Below are positions 1 to 60,436 of a stretch of DNA of 64,000 nucleotides, one piece after another. The DNA comes from Rapana venosa. Its lineage: Eukaryota > Mollusca > Gastropoda > Neogastropoda > Muricidae. The position numbers were made by a program, and so were the translations under genes. The first letter of the stretch is position 1. Every line of letters starts with the position of its first letter. The notes beneath the pieces are model-generated. The model saw nothing but the letters and a program-made list of their open reading frames with translations, made no database searches and was not told where the DNA came from. The stretch is from the NCBI GenBank assembly GCA_028751875.1, contig CM054145.1, positions 49,747,066-49,811,065 on the forward strand, given 5' to 3'.

Positions 1-489
1 GTTGTTTTTTGTTTGGGAGGGGGGGGGAGGTAGACTTTCAGACTGGTTTTGTTTTTGCTTCTCTTGCTATCAGAGTTTCAAATGTAATCCGACGTTGCTG
101 TTGTTTTCCCCTATGATCAAACTTGATCAACGGAGGACTACTCATCATCATCATCATCATCAGACCCGTGACCTTGGCGGTCGTGGGGGAGACACGAAAG
201 ACGATGCCGTGGTAAGCCTCCTCCATCCATCTCGGTCCTCGGCTCTGCGTAGTAGTTACGTCCAGGCAAAAAACAATCCCATATTGAGTGGCTGCAAAGT
301 TATAATGTATGATAAGGTGTAAGCCATGGGCCTGTACAGGCCAACCTACGTGGCAAAGGCGGTAGATCTTTTCATAAACGAGTGATGCATAACATCGGGA
401 ACATTATTTCCTTACCAAATTTTAGCCTTTAGTCAGGCAGTGTGACGAAGAACGTTCGCACAACATGGGCAGAAGCCCCTTGAAAGCTA

Positions 490-490
490 T

Positions 491-556
<66 letters not shown>

Positions 557-607
557 TGTGTGTGTGTTGTGTGTGTGTGTGTGTGTGTGTGTCTCTGTCT
601 GTCTGTC

Positions 608-660
<53 letters not shown>
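490..660. repeat. Compound (CT)n/(GT)n/(CTGT)n microsatellite
   Basis: About 30 CT units, then GT units, then a TGTC tetranucleotide block and more CT. Confidence 0.95.
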
Positions 661-662
<2 letters not shown>

Positions 663-1199
663 TCTCTCTTTCTCCCCAGTTCCTGGGTTTCCGATTGCTT
701 GGGAGGCTGTGTCAGTTGCGATATACTATTATTATACTTCACCCTCAAATACCGGACAAGAGGCTATGATTTAGGCGTAAAGCACAAATATTTAATGGAG
801 AAATAAACTAAAAACAATAAACAGTCATAAACATTCACTCCAGATACTGATTAATAACTAACATCGATAGAATTTGATTTTACTTTTCACGTAAGAATTT
901 TACTCTTCGAATATCTTTGACTTTTCTTTCTGCGTTTTTATCGGGAGGGAGGGGGGCTTTTGGGTTGGTTTTTGTTGTTGTTGTTGTTTTGCATTTGTCA
1001 GATAGACAGCTTCGTCTTTGCAGTGAAGGCAGTAGTAAGCTGATTTGACACGCAAACAAATGATGTGGGAGGGGGGGGGGGGGGGGGGGCGGGAAAGGGT
1101 AGAAACGACATCGCTGGGCCAGTTTGAAAAGAATAAAACCAAAGTGATGCAGAGAAAGAAATATGTGTAATTGGTTTAAAAAAATACATGAATGAAGAG

Positions 1200-1218
1200 A
1201 GAAGAAGAAGAGAGGAGA

Positions 1219-1287
<69 letters not shown>
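1200..1287. repeat. (GA)n microsatellite
   Basis: About 35 GA units. Similar GA/GACA tracts follow at about 1495-1640, just 3' of the NHS-family exon donor on the gene strand. Confidence 0.95.
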
Positions 1288-1291
<4 letters not shown>

Positions 1292-1522
1292 ACTTTGAAA
1301 CTTTTTGTTTACTTGTTTCTTTCTTCACGTTATTAAATGCTGCTTAAACTTCAGTCTCTTTTTGCGAATGACATTCTTTTATTTCGAGGATAATGAGAAT
1401 AATCCAGTCCCCGCACTTTCTAGGGATAGCCTCGTGGTAGAAGAAAAACAAACAAAACCAAAACTATAAACGACACATACACACAAAACCAAACAGAGAG
1501 AGAAGAGAGAGAGAGAGAGGAG

Positions 1523-1565
<43 letters not shown>

Positions 1566-1754
1566 AGACAGACAGACAGACAGACAGACAGAGAGAGAGA
1601 GACAGAGACAGAGAGGCAGACAGACACAGACAGAGAGAAACATACAACAACTAAAGATTTTACTCCACCCCCAATACAAAATAAATAAAAACAAAAGGAG
1701 AGAAAAACAAAGAAACAAAAACAACAAAAAGAAGCTTTTTCATCATCAACTTAC

Positions 1755-2034
1755 GTATGGAAACAGCCTTAGAATCAAGACGTCCCACTTTCTCTTTAAT
1801 CCGCTTGACATGATGTATAATCCTCTCCGTCTGTTCGAACACTTTCTGGCACTCATCGGCCAAATCACAAAACAGATCATCGGCATGACGAACCAAACTG
1901 GCCAACTGGACCAAAGCTCCCAAAACGGCATTTTGTGTCACTGCCACTTGAACCACCTCTTCCCCCTTTTCCTCTTCTCTCAACTGTCGTCTGCCCAGGT
2001 AAACAGGCTCGATGGTTCTTGCTGCGAGAGGCAT
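1755..2034 (-). CDS. NHS-family (Nance-Horan syndrome-like) protein, first coding exon
   Basis: The exon encodes 93 residues plus one base. It opens with MPLAARTIEPVYLGR at the ATG 2034-2032 and ends at a consensus donor (GTAAGT, complement of 1749-1754). The start follows the MP-x(4)-(I/V)EP pattern seen at the N terminus of NHS-like and WAVE proteins. The later part (NAVLGALVQLASLVRHADDL, then a heptad-like helix ending GRLDSKAVSI) matches the WAVE-homology segment of NHS proteins better than WASF, in my judgement. NHS proteins act at the plasma membrane and cell junctions, where they regulate actin through the WAVE complex. All later exons lie off the left edge. A WASF-like gene is the main alternative. 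The exon is less AT-rich than its surroundings, and no in-frame stop interrupts it. Confidence 0.68.
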
Positions 2035-2460
2035 GGCTTTTTAGATTTGAAGTTTTCTTTCACATGATAAAGTTTGAAGAAAAACTGTCCACGAAACGTT
2101 TTTTTGTTTTTGTTTTACAGAATCAGATTACCGGACGTCAGTTTTCAAAAACGTGGCCATGAGTTTAGGTTGACAACACCCTCACAACACCGTGCGTGCG
2201 AGTGCGTGTGTGCGCAAGCAGACGACACTTCATAAAACTGCCGTGAAATGGGGACGACCCCACGCGCGATAAAACTCTTCCGTCAAACGGCCGCTGTTCT
2301 GTCAAACGAACTCCCTCCCCCTGTTTGCTGTGGAGTAAGGGACTGTTGGGGTCAGTTGCTGACCTTTTCACTGTGGTCGTTTTTGCACGCGAGGTCATTG
2401 GCTCGTGACGGGGAAGGTGGGAGTTTTCGCGCTTGACTAACTGAAGGTGTCATTGTAACG
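2035..2460 (-). promoter_or_regulatory. Probable promoter / 5' UTR of the NHS-family gene
   Basis: This is the segment directly upstream of the ATG at 2034. It is richer in CpG than the flanks (about 2240-2460) and has an inverted CCAAT box on the gene strand at 2397-2401, next to a CRE-half-like CGTGACG at 2404-2410. No TATA box stands out. The transcription start cannot be fixed from sequence alone. Confidence 0.33.
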
Positions 2461-4489
2461 GGATTATGCTATATGGAGTCCCCCGGCCGCTGGAGCTTTT
2501 ACCTGTCTATGATTATCTTAACCGTTTGCCGCTACAACTGTTCGATTTGAACCAATCGTGTTGCGTTAGTGACATAAAAATTCAGCTGAGGTTTATGTTT
2601 TGTTGCCCGCGGTTTTCTCTTTAAAAGCTATGTTGGGTGTTTTTTTGTTTTCCTGTTTTAAATTCAACTTTTTGTTGCTGTCGACAATGCCCTGGCAGAT
2701 AAAGGCGGAGTGGTTGAAACAGTGCGATGAAAGTAGGCCCTATAGGTCAGATACTTTTGTTTGTTGTTGTCAGTAGCCCTATATAAGTTATACGCACATA
2801 ATAGAGCAGTCAAAGGAGCTCAAGACCACTACAGATGTCTTTTTTGTCTCAAACATTTCTCCACACACAGATTCTAAGCATTTTCATTTTTTCCTGATGA
2901 GTGTGGCCCTCAAATACTTGACTAAAATTACAAGAGAGGAAGACCCTACTTAAAGACTAACATTACAGGCTGACAGTTCATGCTGGAAGACTAAGATTAC
3001 AGGCTTACAAGAGAGAAGTATTAACCGTCACACTTTCCAGTTGTGGGGTTAAAACCCCTGCAAATGTGCTTTTCCCATAATTGGTATGATCAACATGGGT
3101 TTCCAGGTCCATCTCAGTTGTAGCATAGTAAACTAGTCGAGTGCATCAATCAAATAATATGCATGTACAAGCGACTTGATTTGCTTTTGTTCTGCCTCTG
3201 ACACTCCTGATCTGCTGCTCCCACGCAGCTCATTCCAATCTCTCCACCCCAGCGATACCCAGGCTCATCTAATGCACCCCAGGGCCAGAAATCTACGGGA
3301 AGCAGATCAATGTTTGGCCACTGCTGCTGGGTCACTTTAGTGGTGCTTGTTCTGAGCCAATATACTCGGGATACCATATCCTGTGCTACCTACTGACATG
3401 GAGCCAGACTGTGAGACACCCACTGGGTTGGCGACCACCACATCCCTCCAACAACCATCTCCCATGACTCTCTGATCCCTAAGGCTCCTAGTCAACTTAC
3501 CACAGGCAGGGCAGTCTTCAGGAAACCAAAGCTGTGAGGTCACTTGAGACCGCAGCAACAGGAGCCAATGAAATCAAATTTCTTTTTTGCATGATGGTTA
3601 ATGGTGATGAGGGCAATGTAGTCTGGTTGTGATGCTATGGAGGCACACCAGCTTTGAGGCTGCTTCACAGGGTTGTAATCTACATTTCCCATCATAATAA
3701 TAATAGTTATCATGATCTTAGCATCAACCAGGCTCAAGAGTTGCAAATGCAAATTGTCCATTTTCTTTCCTGCAGAGTTGTGTATATACCATGCCTGATT
3801 TCCCAGTATATTGAAATGGTCCGTTTTATATATGAATGTTTGAATACTTAACTTTTCCCCAATGACCTGGGCACCAGTTACAGAAAAATATAGTTACCTA
3901 TTGCCAACACACTGTGCAATGGTTATGGTGTGGCTGGTCATACTAAAACAAAAACATCCTGTTCTATTGTTCATGGCCTGAAGGATGCAACCACCCTAAA
4001 TACTTAGTTGAAGGTCACAGCTAATGGAAACAGTCAGTCTGCTTGTGCTAGCGGTACACTTACTGACCCAACAGTAGTCCTAATTAATATTCCCCCCCCT
4101 CCACCAAGTTTGTGCCTGTTTGTATATATGCTTACAAGTTACATGTGAGCATGGAGGGGGAAAATAACTGTATAAATGTGTGTGTGTGCACGCACGCACC
4201 GGCATGCCTACATTTCTGTCTCCTTTTTACATCCCTTCCTCCTCCCATGGAAGCATTTCTCCCCACACAGTTACATCACACCACCCTTGTTTTGGTTATG
4301 TTATTTCCGTCTTAAAAGCTTTCTTATAGACAAACAGCAAAAGAACACTTAATAGAATGCTTTTTTCCCCGCATTCATTGGCTTAAGCTCCAAGTTTACC
4401 AATGGCAAGATTTTGTGTGTATGCAACTGTTTTAACCCACCATTAAGGTTGCCCTAGACACCTGTGCGCATGATTTCCACACACAAAAA
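2461..4489. other. Intergenic sequence with no supported gene
   Basis: This lies upstream of the NHS-family exon and beyond the 3' end of macoilin. I see no splice-bounded coding segment. About 3180-3660 has more balanced composition and short open frames on the minus strand. It may be an old dispersed repeat, but I do not recognise it. Confidence 0.4.
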
Positions 4490-23923: not shown

Positions 23924-26900
23924 AAGTAAATTTTATTTAATTGCTGCAAAACTATTTTGTCTCCCACTGTCATACCATTCAGCACCCTAATGTCAAGCCA
24001 GAGCAAGCAGGTCAAAGGCAGCAATCCATTGAGAGAGCTTCAGAAGGCCCTGCAAAGCTACAAAGTCACTCCAGTAACATTCAGGAGTGCTTTTTCTGAC
24101 CAGACAAACAAGGACCTACATATAAAGAAAGGAGAAAACACTAAAAACAACAATAGCTCACTCACTGAACTATGTGAGCAACTTTAGTAGCATTCATGAG
24201 TGCTAGTTCTGACTGTATAGTCAACTATGAATTATGACATTGCTGCTGAAAATTATAGCTTATTCATAAAGGCAAACTCAGTCTCAGCAGTAATATTCAG
24301 GAGCATGTCCTTCCCTATTCCACAGAGTACTGTAAACCACATTTCAATGTAGCAATATGTGAAGTAGGTGTGATATAACACATCCTGCCTGACGTGACAC
24401 ATAGATACCAGCTAAAACATAACAACAAAAACAAAAAAAAGAAAGAAAAATCTGACTGCTGGAAACTGATCAGCATCTTCCACTAACAGTCGTTTGCAGT
24501 GCAATGAGAGTTGGTCACAGCTAGACTTGATTTTAAAATGGCATTAACTAATTCACTATTAGCATAAATATCACAATACAAGCTTTTCAAAACCATACGT
24601 ACCTTTAGGTTTGTCTGAATACTGCATTTCTAGTGGTAATGCCTGCTGTAATATCTGCATGTAAAACTCATTTTCCTTTTGTACTACTTTCTGCCGTCTC
24701 TGTAACACACAAAAGATCAGTTGTCAAGACATGGTTTAATACATATTACACATTTTATATAATCAAAATACCTATATCAACCATTGTATGAAAACTGCAT
24801 GGAACACACAAGACAATCATGACCAAATTCAAGGTGAATTTCACTTCATCAGATTCAACTAAAAGCGGATGTATTTTTTCAACCATTCCTACCAGCATGA
24901 TATTGCCAACTCTTCTAAAACAAAACAAAAAACTTCTTCTTCCTTTTTTGTCATGTTTCTCCCAGGGGAGGTTTGACATTGATGAGCCTTCTCTCTCTGT
25001 TTTGAGCTTCCTCCTTATTTATGCCCCTTTCTCTAAGATCATCTGCAATACAGGCAGCCCAGGTTTTGCTAGGTCTTCCCTTTGGTCTCTTTCCATCCAC
25101 TACGAAGTTCATTGCTCTTTTTATGATGTGGTGGTCTGCTTTCCGTTGAACGTGCCCAAACCAGCGCAGTCTATTGCTACTAGCTACAGACTTCAGATCA
25201 TCAACTTGCACATTCTCCATAGTTCTTCATTCGTGATCCTGTCTTCCCATTTGATCTTTGTCATGTAGCATAGCATTCAGTTTTCACAGCTCTTCAACAA
25301 ACATTCAACGGTTTTTGTGAAAACCCACGTCTCCGAACAATACAGGAGAACAGGTCTGATGCAGGCCTTATATATCAGACAGCGTCTTTCCAGTGGGATT
25401 TTCTGATTTCCGAGCAGACCTGCCAATTCTTTCCATTTCTTCCAAGCATTCGCAATCCTGGTTCTGACAGCTAACTCAGATTTTGCTTCGCAGCTCATCA
25501 TCTCTCCCAGGTAGCAGAATTCGTCTACCACTTCTATCTTCCCTTGTTCAAATTCTAGCTCCTCCTTTCCTGCATCGGTATTGTCTTCACCCTTCTTATT
25601 CATACAACTGGGGCAGACAAATACTCTGTGCTCCTTCTTCATACTTTTGAGCTTTGAGCATCTTTTGTGACACCAATATTGACAGTTGGAGCATTTGATC
25701 GAATTGTTCCCTACACCTTTGTGGCAGACACCACACGGGTATTTGCCTTGCTCTCTATGTGTTCTGCGGTCTTTTCCAACTGTCATTGCTTTGGTCTTGT
25801 CAACATTTACCTTCATTTCTCTGCGTTCTAATAATAATAAATGGAACTTATATAATGCATTCAAACTAATCTTACACAGTCATGCAATCAATGATAAATA
25901 ATCAATAGTTTAAACAAACAGATATTACAAACATGGTGCGCTGCAGACAAAATCTATGAAATAAAATTTCAATAGTCAAATGTTTTTCAAAAGCACACAC
26001 ACTCACTCACACAGGTCGTATACTTTAGCAGGGTGATAGGACATGGGATAGTGAAGGTGGGATAGTTCTGATATGAAACAGGAGGGGGGAAATCTTAGGT
26101 TTGAAATAAATGTCTTGAGGCTGGATTTAAAAGTGTCATAACTAGGTTTCTGGCGAAGAGAGAGAGGGAGCTCATTCCAGGTCAATGGACCCGAAATAGA
26201 GAAAGAGCGGTGGCCAACAGTGGATTGGTTGAATCTAGGTATTTGCAGGCACAAGGTATCTGCAGCAGAGAGGAGGGAACGTGAAGGAGTGTACAGGTTA
26301 AGACATTCACAGAGGTAGGAAGGTGCTGTTTTGTGGAGACCTTTGTAACAGAGGGTACTGATCTTATAATTTACTCTCTGTGGCACAGGCAGCCAGTGGA
26401 GAGATCACAAGAGAGGGTAATGTGCTCAGAGTTTTTCTTTCTGAGAACTAGTCGAGCTGCGGAGTTTTGTATATGTTGAAGGGAGTGGATAGATGATGCT
26501 GGCAGACCAGACAAAAGAGAATTGCAATAGTCCAGACATAAAAGAATGAGAGAAGTGACAAGTTTGGCTGTTGCATCTGTGGACAGGTACCTTCAAATTG
26601 CACTAATACGCTGTAATTGATAGTAGCACAACTGACAGGTCTGGGTGATGAATTTTTTAATAGAGAGTGTGTTGTCGATAAACACCTAGATACTTCACAG
26701 CAGTAGATAGAGGGACTGATGTATTGCAGAGTTCTATTGAAGCTGTTGTAATGGAAGGGAGTTTGTGTTTGGTCCCTACAAGCATGGCTTCAGTTTTATC
26801 TGCATTTAGCTGTAATTTGTTCTGTGTCATCAAGTTTTGAATATCTTCAAAGCAGTGGGCCATATTTGTCAGCAGAGAAGGCAGATTTTCAGGAGTAACA

Positions 26901-29900
26901 CTCTCTGAATCTGAGAGTCATCTGCGTAAAGATGATGGTTTATCATATGTGACAATGGGGCAGTGTAAAGAGTGAAAAGAACAGGGCCTAGAACTGATCC
27001 CTGTGGGACTCCGCATTCCAGTTTGGCAGGTATTGATTGAATCTTGTTTACTGCAACTGTCTGGAATCGGTCAGTAAGGTATGAATTAAGCCAGGTGAAG
27101 GCTGTGCCAGTAACACAGAATGTTTTTTTAAGACAGGGGAGAAGAATTGAGTGGTCTATAGTATCGAAGGCTGCTGATAAGTCAAGTAGAGTGAGAAGGG
27201 AGATTTTCCCTGAGTCAGAAGCGAGTAGAAGCGTGTTTAAAGTGTGTACTAGGGTGGTTTCGGTGCTGTGGTTGACGCGATTGTTGCTGTTTCCGTAACA
27301 AATGTTTTTTTACAGAACAGGGTTGTTAGCCCTGTGTCTAACGCGGTTGACGCGATAGGCAGACTGAAACTCAGGAAGAAGATTGTTGGAGAGAAGATGG
27401 TTGTTGAGCTGTTTAAGAACTACTTTTTCAAGGACTTTAGAAATAAAAGGTAGATTGGAAACAGGCCTATAATTCTTCAGAATGTTAGGGTCAAGGTCAT
27501 GCTTTTTGAGTAGAGGTGTGACTATAGCAGTTTTGAGAGATGATGGAACATTTCCTGAAACAAGAGATGAGTCAGGGTTCATACAGACTTGGTTGGAAAA
27601 AATTTAGGGCCTTTTTAGGGCTTTTTAGGGGCCATTATTTCCAAATTTAGGGCCTAGCCACAGGGTATCAAAGTACATTTTATCAACCTGTGTACACGTT
27701 TACATTGATAAACTAATCTCAAACTCATGTAAGCAAAGTCTTCTTGTCTACAACTGCATGTTGGATATTGATTATTGACACAAATTCAAGTGAAGTTCTA
27801 GAATAAAATGTCTTTCACTCATAGATACTACAATGAATGAAAATCCTCACACAGTAAAACATCCATGGTGTGATGGAAGAGTCCATGTCTTGAAATACGA
27901 AGTAAAGTAAAAACTGAAATAAGTGTCTCTGATTCTAAGATGTTTTTCACAAACAGCTAGCAAAGTGAACTTAAAAGACACTATCCCTCAAACTTGTGAA
28001 CTAGTCTCCTTGCCTTATCAAAGATGCAGATGGTTGCCTGGTACTAGAACTGTAATAAACAATACCCTCACACAGTCACAGTGCCTCTTCCAAATTCTAT
28101 TATTTTATTTCAATCTCACACATGCCTACATGCAGGCATTCACACACACACACACACACACACCACACACACACACGTGCATGCATGCACACGCATGCAT
28201 GCACAAGAGAGACAGAAAGACACAGAGAGAGGCCGCTGGATGCAAGTTCTCTTCACTATGAATACATGCACAAGTCCCGTATCGTCAATGCAGACAGAGA
28301 GGTGGGCCTAACACTGGCTTGAAAAGGATGCCAACACCCTCTCCCCATAGGTTTTTTTCTTTTTAAGCAAGAATCTTCAAATCAAGTTGGCCAATAACTG
28401 AATAATCTGCGAATTTTAAAGTAAAGTCAACTGAATCGACTACATTGAGTGGTGGAAAATATTCAAATAATATTTGTATTTTTCCTGTACATTTGTAAAT
28501 ATTCAGGCATTTGTGACTTGCCTTATGAACTGGATTCGTTTCTGTATGCGTTCTGCAGGAAATCTGTGGGATAATCTCCTCAAATAAAGAATAGATCTGG
28601 CTACAGGTTTTATTGTATTCCCATTCTGACACACGACTCTATCACTGACTGCCATTTTGTAAACTGCCCACAGGAGAAACAATAGGCCTTGCTATTCACA
28701 GTGCAGCTGTGCTAAAATTGACAAATCTCGTAGAGAAGGACTGTAGGGCAGTAAACAGAAAACTGGTATGTTTTTGACTCATGATTGCAGTTTCATAGTT
28801 AAACATCATTTTCCAAGCAAATTACGGGCATACCATAGGGGTAGGTAGTTTTCGGCATGTAAAAAATAACTGGTGAAAGCAAAGGAATATGCACTTCCAA
28901 TGGAGGCAAATTACCTCCCTTGGCAAAATAGGTGGCGCGACATGAATAGCAGACGACAGGCTCTATCGGCGATAATATGATCTTTGGATACCCTTCTTGC
29001 TTTCATTTCTCGTAAGTTTTTTGTGTATTTGTTTAATCTACATTTCAACAGAAACTCTCACTCATGGTTCCCAATTTTAGGGCTTTTTAGGGCCTCCAGG
29101 GCCATAGGTATCATTTTTAGGGCTTTTTAGGGGCCTTATTTTGGATCTTCAAAAATCAGGGCCTTTTAGGGCTTTTTAAGATTTGTACGAACCCTGTGAG
29201 TTTACTATTTTCGTGATACCAGGTATAAGTTGTGGTAGGCACTGTGTGAAAAGAGAAGCAGGTATGGGATCAAGATCACATGATTTTATAGTCATTTCTT
29301 TCAGAATTGTCATGATTTCTTTCTCACTTGTCAGATGAAAGAAAAGGAGAGGAGTGCCAGAGAATTGGGGATCAGAAATTGCAGGCTGGAAAGGAGTCTG
29401 ATCCAGCTTGGATCAAATGTTATGGACTTTTTCAGAAAAGAATGCAGAAAATATAGAAGGAAGTTCAGAGTGGTTGTGTTTCCAATTGCCAAATCTTTGA
29501 GTAGTGTCATCACTGTTTTCAGCTACCAGTACTAAGTCATCAACATATAGCAGTTCCCATATCTCTTCTGGCCTCTCCACTTACTTGGATATGTCATTCA
29601 TCACAAGGATAAAGAGAAGAGGGCTTGATGCAGATCCTTGGTGCACTCCTACTTTTATCTCAAAGCTTTCTGACATCCCAAGTATAGTTTTCACTTTTGA
29701 TTTAGAGTTCTTGTACAAAGTCATAACCATTGAGATGGTGTGCTCCGGTACACCTTGTTTCCTCAAGGCCCATTGAATTGCCTTTCTAGGTACTCTATCA
29801 AAAAATTTTTCCAGGTCAACAAAGATGTGCGTCAAGCTCTTTTTCTTCTCCATATACTTTTCCTGCAGTTGTGTCACAATAAATATTGCATCTGGCTGAT

Positions 29901-44136: not shown

Positions 44137-44218
44137 CGGCAGCGGTGGGATTCGAACCCACGCCTCCGAAGAGACTGGTGCCTTAAACCAGCGCCTTAGA
44201 CCGCTCGGCCACGCTACC
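44137..44218 (-). tRNA. tRNA-Leu (anticodon AAG)
   Basis: On the minus strand, acceptor GGTAGCG pairs with CGCTGCC. The A box is TGGCCGAGCGG. The anticodon arm CTGGT / TTAAGGC / ACCAG gives AAG. A long variable arm (TCTCTTCGGAGG region) marks the class II tRNA-Leu type, and the B box is GGGTTCGAATCCC. A run of more than 20 T on the minus strand follows as a Pol III terminator. The discriminator base is G, whereas eukaryotic tRNA-Leu normally has A. No intron. Confidence 0.93.
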
Positions 44219-45532: not shown

Positions 45533-45614
45533 GGTAGCGTGGCCGAGCGGTCTAAGGCGCTGGTTTTAGGCACCAGTCTCTTCGGAGGCGTGGGTTCGAA
45601 TCCCACCGCTGCCA
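45533..45614 (+). tRNA. tRNA-Leu (anticodon TAG)
   Basis: Acceptor GGTAGCG pairs with CGCTGCC and the discriminator is A. The A box is TGGCCGAGCGG. The anticodon arm CTGGT / TTTAGGC / ACCAG gives TAG (UAG). It has a class II long variable arm and B box GGGTTCGAATCCC. A terminator of about 9-10 T follows one base after the gene. It is identical to the tRNA at 44137-44218 except for base 34 and the discriminator. Confidence 0.96.
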
Positions 45615-45741: not shown

Positions 45742-45782
45742 GGATGGAAGGTGGCAGGACAGTTTAGACTTTCATCTGCCTA
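45742..45782 (+). mobile_element. SINE-B head, left piece split off by LINE copy B
   Basis: It reads GGAAGGTGGCAGGACAGTTT and then CATCTGCCTAA, where intact copies continue CAAGTAAAC. The continuation AAGTAAACC is at 47798, on the other side of the LINE. Confidence 0.8.
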
Positions 45783-47797
45783 ATAATAATAATAATAATA
45801 ATATATGGAATTTATATAGCGCTGAATCTTGTAAAAAACAAACAAATCCAAGCCCTTGCACTCAATCATCTACAGGCATGCAACTCTCCCCAAACACAAC
45901 CAGCAACAGACCCCAAATCCATGCGCGCGCACTACGCACGCACACGCACGCACACACACACACACACAGGAACAACACCCAGAAGGGAAAGACAGCTGCC
46001 GAAAACCAGGGACAGACACGTGGGGGGAAAGCCCCAGGCAGGAAACAAGCGTGCCCTGAGGCTGGGACCCGAAGGAACCAAGCGAAGGCCCCCAACCAAG
46101 CGAAAGAGGGAGGCCACCCCAGGCGGATGGACCAGAAACAGAGAAGGAGCAACGGCCAACAGTGGCCTGCCCGAACCCCCGGTGCCCGAAAGCACAAAGC
46201 ATCCGAGGCCGAACGAAGGGAACGGGAGGGAGTGTACAGGTGAAGACAGCCACAGAGACAAGAGGGTGCAGACCCGTGGAGACATCCAAAACAGAGGGCA
46301 TCGACAGGCAACCATCAAGAGACTGCAGAAGAGGAGCGACGTGCCCAGACCTCCTCCCTCCCAGGACCAGCCGAGCCGCGAACCCCGCATGCGCCGAAGA
46401 GAGTGGACAGACGACGCCGGCAGGCCAGCCAAGAGAACTACAGCAGTCTAAACGTGAAAGAACGAGACAAGCCGGAAGCTGCACCAGTGGACAGACACCC
46501 GTGAAATGCGCCCATGCGCTGCAACCGAGAGCAGCAAGACTGGCAGGTCTGGGCGATGAATCCCCCCACAGAGAGCGCGCTGCCAAGAACTACTCCCAAA
46601 CACCTCACAGAGCCGGACAAAGGAACTGACGCATTGCCGAACTCCACTGAAGTCTTTGTGATAGAGGAAAGTCCATGCTGGGTCCCCACGAGCATGGCCT
46701 CGGTTTTATCGGCACCAAGCTGCAACCCGCTCCAAGTCATCCAGTCCTGAATGTCCTGAAGGCAGCAGGACACACCTGCCAGGAGGGAAGGCAAGCCTTC
46801 AACAGCATCGCTGCACCGAAGCTGAGCACCATCAGCACAGAAATGACGACCAATAGGGTGGTTGTTTATTATATGTGAGAGTGGAGCAGTGTAGAGAGAA
46901 CAGGGCCCAGGACTGATCCCTGCGGGACTCCACATTCCATTTTGACAGGTTTTGATTGAATTTTGTTTACAATAACTTTCTGGAACCAGTCTGTGAGGTA
47001 TGAAGTAAACCAGGTGAGGGCTGTGCCATTAATACCAAACGTATTTTGGAGGCGAGAAAGAAGAATTGAGTGATCTATGGTATCAAAGGCTGCAGATAAG
47101 TCAAGAAGAGTGAGGAGGGAGATTTTTCCTGCATCAGAAGCAAGTAGAAGTGTATCTAAAGTATGGACTAGGGTGGTTTCGGTGCTGTGGTTGGGGCGAT
47201 AGGCAGACTGAAAAGTGGGAAGAAGATCATTGGAATGAAGGTGACTGTTGAGCTGTTTGAGAACAACTTTTTCTAGTACTTTAGAGACAAAGGGTAAGTT
47301 TGAGACAGGCCTGTAATTCTTCAGAATGTTGGGATCGAGGTCATGCTTTTTCAGTAGAGGTGTGACTATTGCTGTTTTAAGAGCTGATGGAAAATTTCCT
47401 GACTGAAGAGATGAGTTTACTATTTTAGTGATAATAGGCACAAGTTGTGGAAGGCATTGTGAGAAAACAGGAGCAGGTATGGGATCAAGGTCGCATGATT
47501 TTATAGTCATTTCCTTCAGAGTTGTCATGATTTCTTTTTCACTTGTGGGATGGAAGGAAAAGAGAGGAGTGCCAGTGAACTGGGGGTCAGGAGGCGCAGG
47601 CTGGAATTGAGTTTGATCAAGTCTGGAGCGTATGTTTCGAACTTTGTCTGAAAAGAAGGCAGAAAATATGGATGGAAGTTCAGACAGGCTGTGGGTGTTA
47701 GGCAGAGGAGTTGTTTTTGCAGATCCAAGGAGATTTGAGGTGAGGAAAAAAAGAGATTTTATGGATGTAGCACAGAGAATTTGGGAAGAGTAGTAAT
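45783..47797 (-). mobile_element. CR1/L2-like LINE copy B with A-to-G hypermutated 3' half
   Basis: Non-LTR retrotransposon inserted in a SINE, with TAATAATAA at its 3' end. The unaltered 5' half (46860-47790) encodes [39 protein letters not shown] and [12 protein letters not shown], all reverse-transcriptase blocks. A 7-bp loss near 46899 relative to copy C breaks the frame. From about 46857 down to 45870 nearly every T in TT or TA context in copy C is C here. The catalytic YADD has become CADG, and Lys/Asn/Tyr/Thr/Ile codons have become Gly/Ser/Cys/Ala/Val. The element is truncated at the 5' end and dead. Confidence 0.9.
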
Positions 47798-51317: not shown

Positions 51318-51400
51318 TTATAATAATAATAATAATAATAATGTATGGAATTTATATAGCGCTGAATCTTGTAAAGCAATAAATCAAAGCGGTCAATTAT
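51318..51400 (-). mobile_element. CR1/L2-like LINE, very short 3' end
   Basis: A TAATAATAA tail is followed by GGAATTTATATAGCGCTGAA and TCTTGTAAAGC, identical to the LINE 3' ends at 45800 and 56960, then truncated after about 70 bp. Confidence 0.8.
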
Positions 51401-56253: not shown

Positions 56254-59200
56254 GGGGACAGAAACTGAGACAGAAAGAGAAAGAGAAACAGACAATTTAT
56301 TTTTTATATTTATTTATTCTTTTATATCGAGGATAATGGAATAAGCATTTATGTGCTTTTTTACATCCAGTCCCCGTGTGTATGCAGATTTGTGAATTCT
56401 GTCATCTGTTCCCACCGGTACACAATGGCCTACTCTTACGAAAAGCGGAACAGGATTTAACGTGTGCGCAAGATGTTCTGCGTTCTGCGTGCGTTCCCAC
56501 ACGGGACCTCGGTTTATAGTCTCATCCGAAGGACTTTTGGGGAGAGTGGAGTTTGCACTAATGCTAACTCCAGAGGAAAGTATCACCTTAAACGGGAATT
56601 AAACCCGGGTAGTCAGATTGCGAGCGCAATGTTCTGACCACTAGGCTATCCAGAGAGAATGACCAAGCTGAGAAGCAAACTCAGTATTTTTTCCACAAAC
56701 CTCCTTGTCGATCTGGTCATGCTCTTCTTTGGTGAACACCCCGTCATGATCCAGGTCAAGCTTCTCAAAGATCTGCACACGCAGCAGCAACAGACACATG
56801 TAACGGTCACAGGCCACACAAACAGCACATGCAGCAGCAACAGACACATGTAACGGTCACAGGCCACACAAACAGCACATGAAGCAGAAACAGACACATA
56901 TAACGGTCACGGGCCAAACAAACAGCACATGAAGCAGAAACAGACACATGTAATAATAATAATATATGGAATTTATATAGCGCTGAATCTTGTAAAAAAC
57001 AAACAAATCAAAGCGCTTGCACTCAATCATTTACAGGCATGCAACTCTCCTTAAACATAATGAACAACAGATTTCAAATCCATGCGCGCGCACGTACGCA
57101 CGCACACGCATGCACGCACACACACACACACGGAACAACACTTAGAAGGTGAAAGATGCTGTTGAAAATTAGGGACAGATACGTGGGGGGAAAGTCTCAG
57201 GTAGGAAATAAGTGTGTTTTGAGGCTGGACTTGAAGGTATCAAGTAAAGGCTTTTGGCGAAGTGAAAGAGGGAGGTCATTCCAGGTGGATGGACCAGAAA
57301 CAGAAGGAGCGACGGCCAACAGTGGTTTGTTTGAATCTGGGTGTTCGAAAGCACAAAGTATCTGCGGCTGAACGAAGGGAACGGGATGGAGTGCACAGAT
57401 GAAGACAGTTACAGAGATAAGAGTGCAGATTTGTGGAGACATTTGAAACAGAGGGTATTGATTTTATACTCCAGTCTTTGTGAGACAGGCAACCAGTGAA
57501 GAGATCGCAGAAGAGGAGTGATGTGTTCAGATTTTTTCTTTCTAAGGACCAGTCGAGCTGCAGAGTTTTGTATGTGTTGAAGAGAGTGGATAGATGATGC
57601 TGGTAGGCCAGCCAAAAGAGAATTACAGTAGTCTAAACGTGAAAGAATGAGAGATGTGACAAGCTTGGAAGTTGCATCAGTGGACAGATACTTGCGAATC
57701 GCGCTTATGCGCCGTAATTGATAGTAGCAAGACTGGCAGGTCTGGGTGATGAATTTTTTCATAGAGAGTGTGTTGTCAAGAACTACTCCTAAATATTTCA
57801 CAGAGTGGGACAAAGGAACTGACGTATTGCCGAATTCTATTGAAGTTTTTGCGATAGAGGAAAGTTTATGTTGGGTCCCTATGAGCATGGCTTCGGTTTT
57901 ATCGGCATTAAGTTGTAACTTGTTCTGAGTCATCCAGTTTTGAATGTCTTGAAGGCAGTAGGACATATTTGTCAGGAGGGAAGGCAAGTTTTCAACAGTA
58001 TCGCTGCACTGAAGCTGAGTATCATCGGCATAGAAATGATGATCAATATGGTGGTTGTTTATTATATGTGAGAGTGGAGCAGTGTAGAGAGTAAAGAGAA
58101 CAGGGCCCAGGACTGATCCCTGCGGGACTCCACATTCCATTTTGACAGGTTTTGATTGAATCTTGTTTACAATAACTTTCTGAAACCGGTCTGTGAGGTA
58201 TGAAGTAAACCAGGTGAGGGCTGTGCCGTTAATACCAAACGTATTTTGGAGGCGAGAAAGAAGAATTGAGTGATCTATGGTATCAAAGGCTGCAGATAAG
58301 TCAAGAAGAGTGAGGAGGGAGATTTTTCCTGCATCAGAAGCAAGTAGAAGTGTATCTAAAGTGTGGACTAGGGTGGTTTCGGTGCTGTGGTTGGGGCGAT
58401 AGGCAGATGAAAAGTGGGAAAAAGATCATTGGAATGAAGGTGACTGTTGAGCTGTTTGAGAACAAGCCACACAAACGGTCACAAGCCACACAAACAGCAC
58501 ATGAAGCAGAAACAGACACATGTAACGGTCACAGGCCACACAAACAGCACACACAGCAGCAACACACATGTAACGGTCACAAGCCACACAAAAAGCACAC
58601 ACAGCAGCAACAGACACATGTAACAGTCACAAGCCACACAAAGAGCACATGAAGCAGCAACAGACACATGTAACGGTCACAGGCCACACAAACAGCACAC
58701 ACAGCAGCAACAGACACATGTAACGGTCACAAGCCAAACAAACAGCACACGACAGCAGCAACAGACACATGTAACGGTCACAAGCCACACAAACAGCACA
58801 CGCAGCAGCAACAGACACATGTAACGGTCACAAGCCAAACAAACAGCACACGCAGCAGCAACAGACACATGTAACGGTCACAGGCCAAACAAACAGCACA
58901 TGAAGCAGCAACAGACACATGTAACAGTCACAAACCACACAAACAGCACACGCAGCAGCAACAGACACATGTAACGATCGCAGGCCAAACAGCACATGAA
59001 GCAGAAACAGACACATGTAACAGTCACAAGCCACACAAACAGCACATGAAGCAGAAACAGACACATGTAACAGTCACAAGCCACACACAGCAACATGAAG
59101 CAGAAACAGACACATGTAACAGTCACAAGCCACCAAAAGCACATGAAGCAGAACAGACACATGTAACAGTCACAGCCAAAGCAAACAGCACATGAAGCAA

Positions 59201-60436
59201 GCAAAGAACATGTACATGAATGCAGCAACAGACATTAATGGTGATGTGTGTGTGTGTGGTGTTGTGTGTGATGCATGTAGTGTATGTGACAAGATTGGAC
59301 ATATGGTGTATCATTTTGATGTGTGATATTAAAACATCCCGGCTTTGCATGTATGTAATCACACAAGCACTTGAATATTGGTGTATACATTTATGTGTGA
59401 TATTTAAAAAAAAAACAAAGGTTGCCACTGATTACCATCACCAGCATCAGCAATAATCATCCATATTACCACAATAACCATCTTCATCATCATCATCATC
59501 ATCACTGCCACAGTTATACCATCCTATGAGAAGGAAGGTGGCAGGATGGTTTAGACAATCACCTGCCTAACAAGTAAATTGTGAGGTTCTGGGTTCGATT
59601 CCCAGCTCTGCCTTTCTTCCCCATTTGACAGGAAAATTGAACTGAATGTCAAAGTCAAACTTTTATTTTCAGATGGTACATTGAATAAGCAGTGCATTTG
59701 CTTTTTTTCATCAAGCCATCTATCTAAAGAAAAAAAAAGCGAGAAAAAAAAGATAAGTCAAGTCTTTCAGAAGAGACTCTAAACCTGTGTTCTTACCGAC
59801 TTATGCACATCAAAAGAACCCACAACAGCTGACAATTAGAAAGGGCGGGGAGGTACTTCCAACCTTTCCTAGCAAAATGGGTAGGTTCAATTCAACTGTA
59901 TCACCCAAGTCGGAATGTGACTACTTTAATTTAATGGTGAGCAAAATTGGTAACATAGCAAAAGTCACTCCATCAGTAGGCCTCATGAGCTCTAGTCAAG
60001 GAATGGAGGAAAAAACAACACCCAACAAAGTATCATTCAATCATCCCAAAAGCCATAACCATCGACATCACAACAATACAAAACAGACACAAAGCAATCA
60101 GAATTCATACCTGAAGAATCACCTGCTGGGCAGGGGCGATTAACTCTTCCAATTAAAATCCTGAAATGACAAAGAATAATATTATAGTACCAATCACAGT
60201 TGCAAAAAAAAAAAATCAATTATGCCTCACTCTCATCCCTTCCTTCCCAACACCAAAAAAAAAAAAGTCACAACATATAGCAAAGCCATAAAAAGGTGAA
60301 AAAGACAGGTTTAAAGGCATAACAAGGCATAAAATTATCATGATATGATATCATCAATGAAGATGATGGTAGTGATGATGAGGAGTAGGGGGACAATAAG
60401 AATGTGCTTATATTCATATTGTTTACAGGGAGGGGG

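Follow-up and report, generated by a model that had tools for sequence, protein, structure and literature searches.

Hyperediting of repeat-derived double-stranded RNA by ADAR has been described as clustered A-to-G changes, with U or A favoured on the 5' side of the edited base, G favoured over U on the 3' side, and young repeats as targets (PMC9989829). The LINE copies reported here share these features; in that account, however, the editing is known in RNA, whereas here it stands in germline DNA, which it would have reached by retrotransposition. In the A-to-G hyperedited retroviruses RAV-1 and avian leukosis virus (Felder 1994; Hajjar and Linial 1995, both cited through PMC8586724), the edited RNA likewise belongs to a reverse-transcribing element; these viruses are infectious, while the element here is a non-LTR one that inserted separately many times in a single genome. 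APOBEC-edited retrotransposons also preserve an editing enzyme's trace in the DNA of retrotransposon copies, yet that trace is described as G-to-A through cytosine deamination of cDNA (PMC2873906), and here it is A-to-G. Our literature search, outside which most subscription journals lie so that an earlier report is possible, returned no recognisable report of a genomic LINE insertion with A-to-G hyperediting. As for the element itself, vertebrate L2-type LINEs have one reverse-transcriptase frame with YADD, a short-unit 3' repeat and frequent 5' truncation. The LINE family studied here resembles them in those features.

Results

The window, i.e. the whole 64,000-nucleotide stretch of Rapana venosa DNA that was analysed (G000:C12:49747066-49811065, in a searched genome of 2.28 Gb and 2004 contigs), holds LINE copies A, B and C, all on the minus strand. 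Copy B (45783..47795) is 5'-truncated and at 47795 diverges from the eight other copies compared; the full length of its family is about 3.99 kb, taken from the span of B's relatives, which reach up to 3.99 kb. Copy C (56954..58465), with an open frame and YADD, is the normal comparison copy, and copy A (26078..27572), whose similarity to B resumes at 29197-29478, is an older relative that serves as the outgroup. Among the features of a retrotransposed LINE, a reverse transcriptase domain, 5' truncation and a 3' repeat tail were found in B's family; no clear target-site duplication was seen by eye in the flanks inspected, where the TAA repeat tail blurs the element end. Pfam placed an RVT_1 domain in B's unedited 5' part and in copy C, and the open frame 45870-46586 across B's edited part was without match to any Pfam family. 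A protein search matched 4131 proteins, and among the best 120 listed the relatives had no useful names; no relatives were found in viral contigs, and the protein of copy C had no match in the phage collection.

Several neighbouring features were also recorded. Two tRNA-Leu genes adjoin B at 44137-44218 (minus strand) and 45533-45614 (plus strand), with anticodons aag and tag; they lie in opposite orientation as an inverted repeat, 97% alike. Copy C is flanked on both sides by similar head-to-tail repeats (56757-56962 and 58474-59238). A match to the LINE's final ~73 bases (45781-45853) lies at 51321-51390 with 90% identity, perhaps in a SINE or another element with the same tail.

Compared with C on the plus strand, B carries 154 T>C, 8 C>T and 37 changes of all other types up to 46880, and no T>C from 46881 on, which bears out the T-to-C bias that a sequence-only reading of the window had described; in the sense strand of the LINE this is A to G. 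Against the family consensus, 156 of the 248 sense As inside 45870-46850 (~63%) read G, as against 0 of 292 outside, and the hyperedited tract (45870..46850, minus strand) was delimited by a two-edge likelihood fit with a gain of 161 log units. The sequence-only reading had set the tract at 45870..46857 with a single sharp edge: the edge at 45870 stands and the fit puts the other at 46850, and the boundary is indeed sharp, but there are two edges rather than one, as the last ~87 bases at the element end (45783..45869, minus strand) are unedited too. The unedited 5' part (46851..47795, minus strand) shows 5 substitutions in 938-945 aligned bases, none of them A>G.

In the first alignment to the consensus, B's tract differed at 185 of 971 bases, with A>G accounting for 155; a realignment that merged A and G counted 159 A>G plus 18 changes of other types over 973 bases. 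By type, B's changes comprise 158 A>G as against 25 of all other listed types together, and G>A numbers 4, i.e. the strand asymmetry holds against a true family consensus, to which B is 98.8% identical when A>G is ignored. APOBEC editing of DNA, which would give G-to-A in the sense strand, was rejected on these 4 G>A versus 158 A>G, the opposite type, as had been argued from the sequence. At 143 A>G sites, outgroup A has the unedited state of C at 120, the edited state of B at 10 and another base at 13; since it mostly carries the unedited state, B is the copy that changed, from A to G. Setting B directly against A alone shows the excess as well (A>G 142, G>A 7, C>T 41, T>C 37). An all-against-all scan of the window yielded 73 repeat pairs of at least 120 bp, with strong bias only in the two pairs covering B's tract.

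Editing in B is blind to codon position (47/76, 47/78 and 45/66 edited; p = 0.59), and the codons changed by A>G only include 73 nonsynonymous and 24 synonymous ones. At the reverse transcriptase catalytic motif (46828..46839, minus strand), located from the alignment and the consensus frame, the family YADD reads CADG in B, the recoding that had been read from the letters. Within the tract, six successive As remain unedited in two places, which is compatible with chance (p = 0.29). Two apparent peculiarities were dropped: other changes in the tract, in excess at 30/971 in the first alignment, came to 18/973 after realignment versus 3-18 in other copies, and the 11 indels of the tract are equalled or exceeded in L016, L018 and L025.

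The relatives behind the consensus came from a first genome search, in which 40 of 3805 candidate places were scored and all 40 taken (L001 being B); their ranking reflected similarity to the unedited part rather than to the tract. The consensus was built from 39 rows, C and L003-L040; B was left out, as was L002, which lies on a 14-kb contig and is a patchwork of mismatches. All 39 consensus rows have 0-5 A>G in the tract, so that B's G states are not those of many copies, and the tract of L002 has 7 A>G among 115 mixed changes. After realignment, A>G changes in rows other than B numbered 0-5 and those of other types 3-18, ranges that do not include L002 or L029, the latter having only 230 tract bases. 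No hyperedited tract was found among the 39 other genomic copies of this search, nor in C, and when 34 longer copies were compared with L009 no A>G clusters appeared elsewhere, the largest A>G count among the 12 of 37 rows listed being 4 per 300 bp. In L002 (G000:C1389:6878-10820) the 5' part is perfect and the 3' kilobase has patches of mixed mismatches, which probably reflect poor assembly. Assembly noise is also visible as many single-base indels in some copies.

A second genome search used the edited B tract as the query, and 40 of 3669 candidates were scored. We read 17 of the 39 non-B places, picked for high identity and therefore not a random sample: 10 were hyperedited, four were A>G-rich but diverged (L046, L047, L055 and L056, which are not relied upon) and three were normal (L052, L053 and L054). 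The scan for clustered A-to-G copies that the sequence-only reading had proposed has thus yielded ten more hyperedited copies besides B. The edited fractions of their tract As are 287/500 (L041), 228/380 (L042), 114/218 (L043), 184/378 (L044), 309/421 (L045), 265/375 (L048), 210/336 (L049), 36/120 (L050), 127/315 (L051) and 78/119 (L057), with L045 and L057 carrying more non-A>G changes than the remaining edited copies. All 11 edited copies are A>G in the sense strand, but an A>G query picked them out, which biases this strand count. With longer flanks, L048 (as L058) has 403 of 639 As edited along the aligned stretch, and L051 (as L060, 1-3807) is edited over bases 88-3464 of the 3988-base reference (302/864 As). 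L060 is a nearly full-length LINE copy edited over ~3.4 kb, for which a very long duplex would be needed.

A probe with all As turned to G was also run, and 40 of 1055 candidates were scored. Identity to this probe was ~73% for presumed normal copies and 79-91% for known edited copies, and among the 15 A>G-rich copies read, which include B, the probe picked up 13 and missed L056 and L057. Further candidates lie above the normal level, e.g. C19:17028391 (81%), C13:29026615 (79%) and C5:79639000 (78%).

The ADAR-like 5'-neighbour preference claimed for B was confirmed by count: 102 of 125 As after A or U are edited, versus 54 of 123 after C or G (Fisher p = 8e-10). By position, the effect in B alone is at -1 (p = 3e-8), with p = 0.06 at -2 and above 0.3 for the rest, and no 3'-neighbour preference is seen in B alone (p = 0.84). 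Pooling B with the ten other copies gives 1996 edited of 3384 As, with rates by 5' neighbour of.757 (U),.702 (A),.488 (C) and.357 (G), and by 3' neighbour of.692 (G),.590 (A),.582 (C) and.537 (U); the 5' preference for A/U over C/G is present in each of the 11 copies singly (p from 1.6e-13 to 0.047). The metazoan ADAR rule is that 5' U and A are favoured and G disfavoured, and that 3' G is favoured and U disfavoured in most species (PMC9989829). The pooled rates match this rule on both the 5' and the 3' side. The genome has 21 exon matches above the cut-off to the ADAR-type deaminase domain PF02137. This domain also occurs in non-ADAR relatives.

Separate editing events are indicated by edit sites that are nearly independent among the six copies compared. 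Over the 15 pairs of these six, phi for the edit states ranges from 0.17 to 0.37, and joint edits exceed the expectation from 5' context by 4-16%. No related 3' flanks were found among the 9 testable of the 11 copies (L050 and L051 excluded). L045, L048, L049 and L051 have 7-12 non-A>G differences in common, and only L045 of these entered the independence test. L042 and L044 have practically the same two tract edges, the starts being at 514 and 513 and the ends at 1997 and 1996 in consensus coordinates. Their edit states (GG 132, AA 99, GA 94, AG 51) differ at 145 of 376 A sites and are correlated (odds ratio 2.7, p = 3.5e-6), with a phi of 0.24, within the range of the other pairs. Their 7 common variants do not establish descent from one locus: these are a subfamily mark, 6-7 of them being carried by 7 of 40 other copies. 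The same edges with partly different edits suggest that duplexes of one kind underwent editing in different RNA molecules, in which case editing would precede insertion.

The tract ends at consensus 1996-1997 in 5 of the 11 copies (B, L042, L044, L048 and L057) and at 1976 in L041 and L045, and the ends vary across copies. Past consensus 1998, the 13 copies counted have G at only 3 of 299 A sites. A stable fold of the 3' tail does not account for its lack of edits (z = +1.15). Either the tail was shielded, as if by bound reverse transcriptase, or it lies beyond the start of an antisense partner, which would have begun there.

At B's edited CA sites, 4 of 34 read TG and 30 read CG (three TG sites after realignment), whereas C>T at the first base was 0/67 for CC and 2/100 for CT, the two latter falling in a stretch taken as misaligned. 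The TG sites, though few, suggest that CpGs made by editing afterwards lost their C. Decay at edit-made CpGs points to old germline DNA and not to a read error. The CA editing rate may be slightly underestimated, since CpG loss in the other direction would resemble an unedited A.

Discussion

We consider it highly probable that ADAR hyperedited a LINE RNA duplex and that the RNA was then retrotransposed, which is the best explanation for B and its edited relatives. A stretch of sense LINE transcript would pair with antisense LINE RNA, and ADAR would deaminate ~60% of the adenosines in the duplex, favouring A after U or A. Target-primed reverse transcription of the edited RNA by the LINE's own enzyme would follow, with inosine read as G, and the edited cDNA would become a germline insertion. 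Three reverse transcriptases are reported to read inosine mostly as G in most cases (PMC10877575). This is in essence what the sequence-only reading had proposed, and the proposal of hyperedited LINE RNA that was reverse transcribed is supported; we infer that the enzyme was ADAR, that the transcript paired with antisense LINE RNA and that editing preceded insertion. The sharp tract edges speak for a double-stranded substrate only indirectly.

The alternative that survives best, although improbable, is that adenine was deaminated in DNA, e.g. by ADAR on an RNA:DNA hybrid at insertion or in an R-loop. Editing by ADARs has been reported for either strand of hybrids, RNA as well as DNA (Zheng et al., cited in PMC7693803), yet the DNA strand of such a hybrid would be the antisense one and its deamination should appear as T>C in sense, whereas 11 of 11 copies are A>G, a count biased by the A>G query. 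The edges common to L042 and L044 also fit a defined duplex better. Editing of the hybrid's RNA strand is a possible form of this alternative.

A sequencing or assembly artefact is more improbable still. The assembly is noisy in places, as the single-base indels of some copies and the mosaic L002 on its 14-kb contig illustrate, but the changes in B are of a single type, on one strand, and follow a neighbour rule. The signs of CpG decay at edit-made sites and the recurrence of edited copies on several chromosome-sized contigs likewise argue against an artefact. Least credible is that the tract belongs to a LINE subfamily rich in GC, or that B recombined with such a subfamily or with another LINE family: the discrete, sharp-edged form of the tract speaks for this, but its 158 A>G against 25 other changes, its 98.8% identity ignoring A>G, its lack of codon-position bias and the occurrence of B's states in none of the copies compared leave this next to no room.

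Beyond the hyperediting and retrotransposition of single copies, we give even weight for and against the broader proposition that ADAR repeatedly edits germline LINE RNA from defined duplexes, and that the genome is a countable archive of single RNA molecules which could retrotranspose in spite of their hyperediting. If this is true, inosine-rich RNA can undergo reverse transcription and insertion. Each edited copy would then be a snapshot of one RNA molecule, so that germline editing, duplex boundaries and enzyme preference would be readable from DNA, even without RNA data.
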